DNA of 46,020 bases from an uncultured bacterium (GTDB lineage: Bacteria > Bacillota_I > Bacilli_A > RFN20 > CAG-826). Where the stretch lies: positions 1 to 46,020 of the forward strand of contig CASGDR010000005.1 of NCBI GenBank assembly GCA_949300345.1, read 5' to 3'. Numbering within the stretch: the first letter of the stretch is position 1; each line of letters starts with the position of its first letter. The notes beneath the pieces were generated by a model, which was not told the DNA's origin, ran no database searches, and saw only the letters and a program-made list of their open reading frames with translations. Positions 42,868 to 46,020 of the stretch are shown piece after piece. The translations under genes were made by a program, and so were the position numbers.

Positions 42868-43797
42868 ATGCTGATTACCTACTGCATTTTCGACCACATG
42901 TTGAAGAAGGCCCTCGGCGGCCGCAAGGACGGTTCGATCCTTCTGGATTACTACAATGCCGAAGGTCTGGGACTCAAAGAAGAAACATTTTCCTTTATAT
43001 CAGGGGGATATAAGTTAAGCGGTTCCCGTTATTTTTACGAAGGTGTCGGCCCCAAAGCCGTTGTCTGTTTCTTCCATGGTCTAGGCGGAGGCAGGACATC
43101 ATATCTCCATCTCATTGCCCAATTTTGCAAACAGGATTATCTCGTCTACGGCTTCGATGTCACCGGAGCCAACAAATCCGAAGGTCCTTCGATTGTGGGA
43201 TTGGGACATTACAAATATGATCTGGATGCCTTCTTTGACTTCCTTGATAAGGACGAAAAGGCCAAGGGGCTCAAATGCTACGCCGTCGGCCATAGTTGGG
43301 GCGGCTACGCCAGCATGCTCTCCCTTGAATATCCAGGCATCGAAAAAGCCATTGTCCTAGCTGGATTCCTATCTCCGATCGGAGTCGTCAAAAGCCTTTG
43401 CAATTCCAAATTCATCAATGCCATGGGCTGGCTCATCCAGATGAATTTCAAGATCAATATGGGCAAATACGGAAACTACGATGCCTATAAGATCTTAATG
43501 GAGACCAAGAAGCCCGTCTTCTATATCCAAGGGGAAGATGATCATATAGTCGAGTACAAAGCCAGTGGCAAAATCGTCGAAAACCTGAGCAAAACCCACC
43601 CCAATATCTCGACTTTGATCATCAAGGACCGCCGTCATTCCTGCTATTTGACCAACGAGGCGGAAAAGGAAGTTGAAGCCCTCTGGGCTGATTGCCGCAA
43701 CATTCAAAAGGCAGGGCAGATTTCCACCGATTTGGAGGCTTGCTCTACCGAAGATCCAAAAGTCATGAAAGAGATGTTCGACTTTTTGGAAAAGTGA
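42868..43797 (+). CDS. Alpha/beta hydrolase (monoacylglycerol lipase-like)
   Basis: The 309-residue product has the alpha/beta-hydrolase fold: oxyanion region FFHGLGGGRTS, DVTGANKSEG, the nucleophile elbow GHSWGG, the acid in IQGEDDHIVEY and the histidine in DRRHSCYLT. The pattern resembles the serine aminopeptidase S33/monoglyceride lipase group (Hydrolase_4). There is no signal peptide, so it is cytoplasmic. An internal ATG (MLKKALGG, residue 11) is an alternative start. No Shine-Dalgarno is visible; a TTTTAT at 42857-42862 within the preceding T-run could be its -10. The substrate is unknown. Confidence 0.88.
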   Translation: MLITYCIFDHMLKKALGGRKDGSILLDYYNAEGLGLKEETFSFISGGYKLSGSRYFYEGVGPKAVVCFFHGLGGGRTSYLHLIAQFCKQDYLVYGFDVTGANKSEGPSIVGLGHYKYDLDAFFDFLDKDEKAKGLKCYAVGHSWGGYASMLSLEYPGIEKAIVLAGFLSPIGVVKSLCNSKFINAMGWLIQMNFKINMGKYGNYDAYKILMETKKPVFYIQGEDDHIVEYKASGKIVENLSKTHPNISTLIIKDRRHSCYLTNEAEKEVEALWADCRNIQKAGQISTDLEACSTEDPKVMKEMFDFLEK

Positions 43798-43815: not shown

Positions 43816-43900
43816 GCGTTGGTGGCGGAATCGGTAGACGCGCTAGTTTCAGGAGCTAGTGGGGCGACCCGTAAGAGTTCAAGTCTCTTCCAGCGCACCA
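43816..43900 (+). tRNA. tRNA-Leu (anticodon CAG)
   Basis: An 85-base class II tRNA with a long variable arm. Acceptor GCGTTGG pairs with CCAGCGC; the stem CTAGT/GCTAG encloses TTCAGGA (anticodon CAG, codon CTG); CCA is encoded at 43898-43900. It starts 18 bases after the hydrolase stop and leads a three-tRNA cluster. Confidence 0.95.
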
Positions 43901-43904
43901 GCTT

Positions 43905-43981
43905 GCGCTCGTAGCTCAGCTGGATAGAGCGCAACCCTCCGAAGGTTGAGGTCAGGCGTTCGAATCGCCTCGGGCGCGCCA
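43905..43981 (+). tRNA. tRNA-Arg (anticodon CCG)
   Basis: Acceptor GCGCTCG pairs with CGGGCGC; the stem CAACC/GGTTG encloses CTCCGAA (anticodon CCG, codon CGG); CCA is encoded at 43979-43981. It follows tRNA-Leu by 4 bases and is nearly identical to tRNA-Arg(CCT) at 40482 outside the anticodon arm. A hairpin (TCCTTAC 43994-44000, GTAAGGA 44007-44013) lies before the next tRNA. Confidence 0.97.
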
Positions 43982-44015
43982 GCTTGATATAGATCCTTAC
44001 TGCCGAGTAAGGAAT

Positions 44016-44103
44016 GGCCCTCTGGTGGAATTGGTAGACGCGGCGGACTCAAAATCCGCTTGGTGATGAGCCAGTGCCGGTTCGAGTCCGGCGAGGGCCA
44101 CCA
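44016..44103 (+). tRNA. tRNA-Leu (anticodon CAA)
   Basis: An 88-base class II tRNA. Acceptor GGCCCTC pairs with GAGGGCC; the stem GCGGA/TCCGC encloses CTCAAAA (anticodon CAA, codon TTG); CCA is encoded at 44101-44103. It is the last gene with host-like composition before the AT-rich tail, and its 3' end is a classical site for integrases. Confidence 0.97.
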
Positions 44104-44115
44104 TATAAAAAGCAT

Positions 44116-44156
44116 AGGTTTGATACGCTAAAAACGGGTATTCAAACCTTTTTTTG
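44116..44156 (+). terminator. Terminator of the tRNA-Leu cluster
   Basis: AGGTTTGATAC and GTATTCAAACCT (44116-44149) pair with a one-base bulge around a ~10-nt loop and are followed by TTTTTTT. Confidence 0.8.
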
Positions 44157-44453
44157 TCAAAATTAGCAAAAATCAGCAGTTATTTAACATAAATTGAGGA
44201 TAAACGAATTAACATTCTATCCTCTACTAATGAAGTTTTAGCTTAGGATTTTGCACTAAAAACTTTTTATAACACAATAAACTTTTTGCCGCACAAAAAA
44301 CTTTTTATCCTTTTTGAGAAAAAATCTCGTTAAAGTTCTATGAAAATATTGAATATAGATTATGACCAAAATGAGCTAATTTTGAGTCACATTTTGACAC
44401 GTTTAAAGATAATATGTTAAAAACATTAGTATTTTGTTTTAGGGATGGTACCT
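44157..44453. other. AT-rich intergenic region without a gene
   Basis: This ~300-base stretch is far richer in A and T than the 44 kb before it and has stops in every frame. It holds three AAACTTTTT repeats (separate entry), a small hairpin (GAGA-AAAAAA-TCTC near 44326) and a TTGACA at 44394-44399. No well-spaced -10 partners that -35; GATAAT (44409) is too near and TTAAAA (44417) is a poor match. I see no tRNA, no copy of the tRNA-Leu 3' end and no integrase. Confidence 0.6.
44260..44306 (+). repeat. Three AAACTTTTT repeats with 19-bp period
   Basis: AACTTTTT occurs at 44261-44268, 44280-44287 and 44299-44306, exactly 19 bp apart, each preceded by at least one more A. The intervening bases are not conserved. 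An inverted partial copy (AAGTTTT) lies upstream at about 44232. The regular spacing suggests binding sites for a repeated protein, about two helical turns apart. Confidence 0.6.
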
Positions 44454-45551
44454 ATGAAAAAGCTATTTTGCATACTGATAAGCTCCGTTTTGCTTGTATG
44501 TGCCGTTTTTGCTCTTGCCGGTTGCGGACCAAAATCGCAAAAAGATAACAAAGCGGATCGAGCATTGGATACTAGCTTAGTAGGAGTTTGGCAAGGTTCG
44601 GATGGCACCGTATATGTTGAGCTAAAAGACTTCGAGCATGACGACTATCAATTCATAAGCGATAGCGGACAAGGTGCTACTTCCATTGAATTTTCACTGG
44701 ACGGTGGTAGTAGCTGGGCACGTCAAGACCCTGTTGCAGACTTCTTCAATCAGACCGATCGCGGTATCTATACTATCTTGTCGTATGATGGCAGTGGGTT
44801 TACAAGCTATTTGACAGGTCATGAAGGCGAAAATATGCCCCAACAAAACCCAAAATTCAGTGCTGGCGCCGATCTTTCAATCACCTTTCGCATTCCCGAG
44901 TCGGACACGTATAAAGCGAGCGAGTGGTCGACGGCGACAACTTATACGCTTAAAGCTCCCGGCACAGATAACAGCGAAATTTTTGCATACCATTACGGAG
45001 CGTCCCTGCAGGATAAAGCGCAGTATGACTCGGGAATTTCAGCAAACACTTTCGAGAGCAACGGTTTCGTGGTTTACAGAGAGGGGGGCTTGCTAAAATT
45101 TGGTAAAATAGCTTCTAAGGTTTCCTCTGCCGAAAGCGGTATGTATGACTACACTTTCACCCCTCAAGAGAAGTTGAGCGAGACAGAGAAGAACGAGATT
45201 GCAAAGTTCGAATACAAGTTTGTATCCAAACTCGAATATGAACAAAATACAACGGCAGAGAGTACCGATCTATTGAGTTCTATCACACCGGATATAGAGA
45301 CTTACGAAGACAATTTACTTATGTCTGGCACATGGACGGCTGTAACTGCCGACGGTTTTGAGTTTAATGCAACCAACATCAACTATATTTGGAAATACAA
45401 TGTTGAAGCATCCAATGCCAGTACTGGTGAAACGGAGATCGATACCTGTACATCATTGATTCTGTTGGTGCGCATTAAGGCAACTGACTCAACTGCACAT
45501 TCGAAAGTTCACGTTCTTGAATATCAACTTCCGTACGAGCCTGTCGAATAA
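44454..45551 (+). CDS. Putative lipoprotein of unknown function
   Basis: The start at 44454 lies 9 nt after AGGG; an in-frame ATG at 44445 is too close. The 365-residue product begins with a lipoprotein signal peptide (MKKLFCILISSVLLVCAVFALAGC, lipobox LAGC, Cys24). The rest is Ser/Thr/Asp/Tyr-rich with alternating beta-strand patterns and no recognised domain. Two stretches begin similarly (LVGVWQGSDGTVYVEL and MSGTWTAVTADGFEFN), suggesting a duplicated beta-domain of the LVGTW-x kind; this is inference. Its AT-leaning codon use differs clearly from genes before 44103. Confidence 0.75.
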   Translation: MKKLFCILISSVLLVCAVFALAGCGPKSQKDNKADRALDTSLVGVWQGSDGTVYVELKDFEHDDYQFISDSGQGATSIEFSLDGGSSWARQDPVADFFNQTDRGIYTILSYDGSGFTSYLTGHEGENMPQQNPKFSAGADLSITFRIPESDTYKASEWSTATTYTLKAPGTDNSEIFAYHYGASLQDKAQYDSGISANTFESNGFVVYREGGLLKFGKIASKVSSAESGMYDYTFTPQEKLSETEKNEIAKFEYKFVSKLEYEQNTTAESTDLLSSITPDIETYEDNLLMSGTWTAVTADGFEFNATNINYIWKYNVEASNASTGETEIDTCTSLILLVRIKATDSTAHSKVHVLEYQLPYEPVE

Positions 45552-45627
45552 GCAAGGTACTTTGCAAGTATTTTTTGTAGCGACGAGAGAATATTCTACT
45601 GAAAGACTTTATGCGGAGGTTTAATGT

Positions 45628-45999
45628 ATGAAGTTTGTAAGTCAACTGATAAGACATATTGGCAGCTGTATCACGGCAGAAAAAGGCAAGCGTATTTTTT
45701 ACGCCGTTGTTAACATTGCATTTATAGCGATAGCAGTGCTTTCTGGTTGGGGCGCTTTAAAGGCATGGGAAATAATGTTCAACGAAACCTTTATTGGCGG
45801 ATTGCTATTATTGATTGTATGCGCTGCGTTTGCGATTCTTTTTTTGATCGACGGCGTGATCGGTCAGTTAATTCATGCCGTTGTTAATTTTAAATTTATA
45901 TTTAACCGAGAAGAGCGTGGCTATGCAATCTGTGCATTCATTATCGCTTTACTATCTATTGTTGCAATGGTGGTGGTAATGGTCATTTTATTAAATTAA
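45628..45999 (+). CDS. Small membrane protein, function unknown
   Basis: The 123-residue product has three hydrophobic segments (about 23-46, 53-78 and 100-122), with a basic first ~20 residues. A consensus Shine-Dalgarno GGAGGT (45615-45620) lies 7 nt before ATG 45628; another ATG at 45624 is out of frame. It lies 76 bases after the lipoprotein gene with no terminator seen between, so the two may be co-transcribed. Composition matches the lipoprotein gene, not the host genes. No family recognised. Confidence 0.7.
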   Translation: MKFVSQLIRHIGSCITAEKGKRIFYAVVNIAFIAIAVLSGWGALKAWEIMFNETFIGGLLLLIVCAAFAILFLIDGVIGQLIHAVVNFKFIFNREERGYAICAFIIALLSIVAMVVVMVILLN

Positions 46000-46020
46000 A
46001 TAAGTATGAATCCCATAAAA

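Follow-up and report, generated by a model that had tools for sequence, protein, structure and literature searches.

Does the AT-rich tail at the end of a metagenome-assembled contig belong to the genome in which it is found, as native or acquired DNA, or was it attached there during assembly? The question concerns contig C5, whose 46,020 bp, from first to last base, constitute the stretch of DNA analysed here (the window), position 46020 being a physical contig end. The MAG that holds it (G000) consists of ten contigs, spans 1,053,145 bp, and is 93.3% complete with 0.31% contamination. A preliminary description placed a change in sequence character directly after the 3′ end of a tRNA-Leu gene, and considered the start of a mobile island and a false join equally possible. 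The evidence set out below leans towards a chimeric contig end, running from a point within 44198–44366 to 46020, as the probable, if far from certain, nature of this tail.

Where recognizable host sequence ends

C5 begins within a 23S rRNA gene, with the 5S gene also inside positions 1–594, and ends 1.9 kb beyond a plus-strand cluster of host tRNA genes, Leu(CAG), Arg(CCG) and Leu(CAA) (43816–44103, ARAGORN). The last of these (44016–44103, plus strand) was assigned by ARAGORN as Leu(CAA), in agreement with the upstream tRNA-Leu of the preliminary description. The Leu(CAG)–Arg(CCG) pair is retained at the corresponding position in many relatives from the genus, with Leu(CAA) located downstream at a variable distance. 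A terminator-like stem and T-run on the plus strand (44116–44155, stem 44116–44149) close the cluster; these were read directly, the stem having been missed by a simple terminator scan because its loop exceeds the limit of that scan. The closest relative at this locus, the same-genus genome G006, whose copy of the hydrolase encoded at 42868–43797 is 56% identical and the best among relatives, has the same terminator-like stem at the same place. Its contig C3 (48,246 bp) resembles C5 in running from within 23S rRNA to a point past tRNA-Leu(CAA), and is collinear with C5 over the parts compared, the first 20 kb and the last 4.3 kb. Beyond the stem the plus-strand segment 44151–44197 is the last stretch shown as host DNA, based on 86% identity over 49 bp to the sequence following the tRNA-Leu(CAA) of G006 (E 2e-8).

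From the other side, similarity to a locus in an uncultured bacterium (L005, genome G041) starts at 44367 and continues at 88% over 1,414 columns up to the end of the L005 contig. As judged by these alignments, the G006 match up to 44197 and the L005 match from 44367 place the join within 44198–44366, and not at 44104. It falls at least 94 bp past the tRNA-Leu(CAA) 3′ end and between two complete transcription units, so that the change does not directly follow the tRNA as had been claimed, the terminator-like stem and the G006-matching segment 44151–44197 intervening. The accompanying fall in base composition is genuine, from a G+C of about 0.48–0.51 on the host side to 0.34–0.47 in the tail (500-bp steps), but its proposed start at 44104 must be moved, since the match to G006 lasts to 44197.

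The AT-rich spacer containing the join (44198–44366, no strand assigned) matches neither G006 nor L005, nor any other fetched locus, at a significant level. Within it, positions 44253–44308 hold two near-identical 18-nt copies of GCACWAAAAACTTTTTAT, a direct repeat whose units are placed at 44253 and 44291. When its 15-mers were checked against all other fetched loci a single 16-nt match appeared, probably by chance; a misjoin via a common k-mer in the spacer was considered and set aside, as the fetched loci share nothing beyond that match.

The position of the join bears on the suggestion that the tail is the left edge of a genomic island or prophage targeted to tRNA-Leu. While a tRNA-Leu gene does lie 0.1–0.3 kb upstream of the join, the join is away from the tRNA 3′ end, identity to G006 running 94 bp past it, and the duplicate of the tRNA-Leu 3′ end whose search had been advised is not found in the visible 1.9 kb, the far side lying beyond the contig. 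As the preliminary description had observed, there is no integrase among the two ORFs of the visible 1.8 kb, and none of the searches made turned up a viral, phage or plasmid relative for either gene. We therefore regard such an island as very unlikely; one starting at the tRNA end itself was rejected, given the boundary position and a visible tail in which the tRNA end does not recur. A phage or plasmid origin was also rejected, no match having been returned by phage, plasmid or viral-contig searches.

The two genes of the tail and their codon use

The first tail gene (44454–45551, plus strand) ends about 470 bp before the end of C5 and encodes a putative 365-aa lipoprotein that is foreign to the lineage of the host and carries a signal peptide with LAGC. 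The gene is preceded by a promoter region (44367–44453, plus strand) that lies within the 88% L005 stretch from its start at 44367 and shows 73% nucleotide identity, from 44388, with a further locus, L119 (genome G154). Comparison with the L005 copy, the closest full one, gave dS 0.37 and dN 0.09, a dN/dS of about 0.24, so that the lipoprotein gene is a real one, under purifying selection. Its structure model is poor (mean pLDDT 52.8). The second gene, ORF2 (45628–45999, plus strand), encodes a predicted three-helix membrane protein of 123 aa, for which a single-sequence model of moderate confidence displays three helices (pLDDT 68.0); the only relative that turned up is a stub of 49 aa where the L005 contig ends, with an identity of 94%. 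The two are probably co-transcribed. Strong GGAGG sites had been reported for the tail, and one is indeed present before ORF2 (around 45616), whereas the lipoprotein gene has AGGGATGG in its place. The statement that neither gene has a recognizable family is borne out by searches of Pfam, NCBIfam and PHROGs, all without a match, and a profile search of solved structures returned a single non-significant match (E 0.06). From anatomy one might guess that the lipoprotein is exposed at the surface and partnered by the membrane protein.

Codon use was scored against a leave-one-out model for which the window, along with the retrieved terminal regions of the remaining nine G000 contigs, supplied 144 host ORFs. 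The synonymous-codon score of the lipoprotein gene exceeds that of only six of these ORFs and that of ORF2 exceeds none, making it the lowest, with similar values obtained under a longer ORF limit (four and none of 135, respectively). The shift in arginine and alanine codons noted earlier is confirmed: GCC accounts for 0.70 of host alanine codons vs 6 of 28 in the lipoprotein gene, and AGG, at 0.32 for arginine in the host, occurs in neither tail gene. The L005 copy is equally out of place, scoring above none of the 44 ORFs examined in its own genome, so the window and L005 genomes both end in the same alien gene. The compositional anomaly of the tail is real but not unique, as a few host ORFs, most of them near other contig ends, are as codon-atypical as the lipoprotein gene, and low G+C alone is not decisive because AT-rich host stretches occur elsewhere too, for instance at the ends of C9 and C7. 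In C5 itself the alien sequence is confined to one end. That the tail genes are simply native to the host lineage, as AT-rich genes of an ordinary kind, a reading to which the six lower-scoring host ORFs lend some substance, is nevertheless scarcely credible: among 41 genomes (G000 and 40 relatives) the lipoprotein is present in G000 only, and its relatives are found only in other lineages. The tail is likewise absent from all eight same-genus relatives for which the 3′ flank of tRNA-Leu(CAA) was fetched.

Relatives of the lipoprotein in other lineages

A GTDB contig search with the lipoprotein retrieved three loci, L005 (83% amino acid identity), L006 in a Christensenellaceae MAG (G042, 54%), and L007 in a Eubacteriales MAG (G043, 93% over 75 residues). 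A further relative, L116 on contig C2 of G143, is 52% identical, and L119 matches the lipoprotein at 69% over 45 residues. The best intact interior copies are the 52–54% relatives L116 and L006, whereas the nearest copies (83–93%) are at contig ends. Indeed, all four closest copies abut contig ends, namely the end of C5, the start of G041:C3 (L005), the end of G043:C150 (L007) and the start of G154:C74 (L119), the L005 copy lying 226 bp from its contig end and the L007 and L119 copies being cut by theirs. In L007 the match starts at about codon 85, mid-frame and without a start codon, just after an efp-like gene (name read from sequence). Between the window and L005 the relationship is that of a mosaic, with identities of 71–99% per 100-bp bin and five exact runs of 46–123 bp, a pattern that would be expected of similar recombining copies, of the sort that short-read assemblers may handle badly.

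Neighbourhood searches using an alignment (A1) of the window, L005 and L006 sequences found a match in only one of 78 genomes around G041, this being G041 itself, in 8 of 149 around G042, and in 15 of 396 around G154. Five of the latter are full-length or nearly so (G042, G143, G284, G135, G140), and the other ten comprise a partial match with a stop (G319) and nine short or weak N-terminal matches, that of G154 itself among them. These full-length relatives lie inside contigs of another lineage, which includes the Christensenellaceae MAG G042. No parent genome carrying 44367–46020 at more than 95% was found among the genomes searched, and G041 holds one lipoprotein copy, G042 one strong copy. 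Downstream of the lipoprotein relative at the end of G143:C2 (L116 8084–8983), the start of an ABC-transporter ATPase is seemingly fused to the end of a permease, which may reflect an internal deletion or another misjoin.

Assembly error or acquired genes

The region following tRNA-Leu(CAA) differs among relatives. In G010 and G021 a membrane protein gene is followed by an AMMECR1-like gene, in G017 the AMMECR1-like gene comes directly after the tRNA, and in G022 an exonuclease-like gene is found (names read from translations); in G006 an AMMECR1-like gene, a P-type ATPase and tRNA-Thr(CGT) occur within the first 12 kb of a separate contig, C2. Contig C3 of G006 stops 312 bp beyond tRNA-Leu(CAA). 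The short open frame found there (L070 4036–4347) has no Pfam match and looks like the terminal part of some larger gene; an impression that this fragment is a transposase end came from reading the frame, and was dropped without Pfam support. The AMMECR1-like and UppP-like genes found downstream in several relatives, G010 included, were not detected in G000, weak evidence in a MAG that is 93% complete, and P-type ATPases are present there only as distant paralogues (about 30%), so that the native continuation is probably missing from the G000 assembly. This fits a wrongly continued contig, but also a real insertion in an incomplete MAG. None of the retrieved ends of the nine remaining G000 contigs continues the tail. 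Several of these ends show relationships of their own: C8 starts with the 5′ part of a 16S gene on the minus strand (L085 1–397) and probably flanks one rRNA operon together with C5; the end of C9 (L094) and the start of C1 (L079) share a spacer-separated 36-nt direct repeat of CRISPR-like appearance, and probably join across such an array; and overlaps are seen between the starts of C2 and C9, the starts of C6 and C10, and the ends of C1 and C10.

Of the two origins offered in the preliminary description the island is unsupported, and the chimera fits best, with a probability we would put modestly above even. In a chimeric contig end, G000 sequence would run past the tRNA terminator and then be wrongly continued into a fragment of a different, distantly related gut bacterium, whose source would be the lineage carrying the lipoprotein family, G042 and its neighbours. 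The donor gene would probably exist in several similar mosaic copies or strains within the community, causing assemblers to stop, and sometimes to misjoin, inside it; the join would then be an assembly error, not a real insertion, and the donor gene multi-copy. This reading is favoured because the tail runs off the end of C5 and its genes use alien codons, because the lipoprotein is absent from relatives of the host and present in another lineage, and because its closest copies also sit at contig ends; the mosaic relationship to L005, the L007 copy that starts in mid-frame and the probable loss of the native continuation speak for it as well. It is weakened by the intergenic position of the join, which leaves the terminator intact on the left and promoter and gene intact on the right. 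In L005, too, the change is marked by a gene edge and not a random point, while misjoins at random points would frequently interrupt genes, as that of L007 does. Moreover, for chance misjoins to have brought the family into three MAGs that are not related, the donor would have to be of a special, repeat-like kind, and yet a single copy was seen in G041 and one strong copy in G042. Misassembled chimeric contigs are described by the GUNC authors (PMC8201837) as a known error of MAGs, relatively rare compared with mis-binning.

A sizeable minority of our confidence goes to horizontal acquisition, according to which the lipoprotein and membrane-protein pair came from the same foreign lineage and was truly inserted, in this strain, behind the terminator of tRNA-Leu. 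C5 would then break within the pair owing to similar copies in other community members. Both flanking transcription units are intact, the lipoprotein gene is open and under purifying selection, and the family is found beside three different genomes, with the window and L005 joins each keeping promoter and gene whole, as would suit selection acting on a real insertion. The flank 3′ of tRNA-Leu(CAA) is also variable among relatives, and the G006 contig stops shortly past the tRNA as well, as though assembly were difficult at this site. On the other side, no integrase, transposase, att repeat or inverted repeat delimits the visible tail, none of the host-type genomes examined has a complete copy in a contig interior, the start is missing from the L007 copy, and close copies occur everywhere at contig ends. 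A more elaborate version, in which a small cassette free of integrase and transposase moves between unrelated gut Firmicutes, inserts with its promoter between transcription units and recombines into mosaics, strikes us as improbable.

The implication is mostly one of caution, in that the tail should for now count neither as gene content of the species nor as an integration hot spot. The lipoprotein family may in addition prove a useful marker of break points in gut metagenome assemblies.

Compared with known systems, the locus resembles a tRNA-Leu-targeted island in having a tRNA-Leu gene nearby, but differs in a boundary set off from the tRNA 3′ end and in the absence of an integrase or att copy in view. 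With an acquired accessory gene pair it shares an intact promoter, two co-oriented genes and alien codon use, although it has no mobility gene or boundary repeat and only one of its sides is visible. It departs from a chimeric contig end in that the join spares the genes, falling between them, and resembles one in other ways: a short foreign stretch terminates a host contig, the relatives of that stretch belong to another lineage, and its close copies, too, are located at contig ends.
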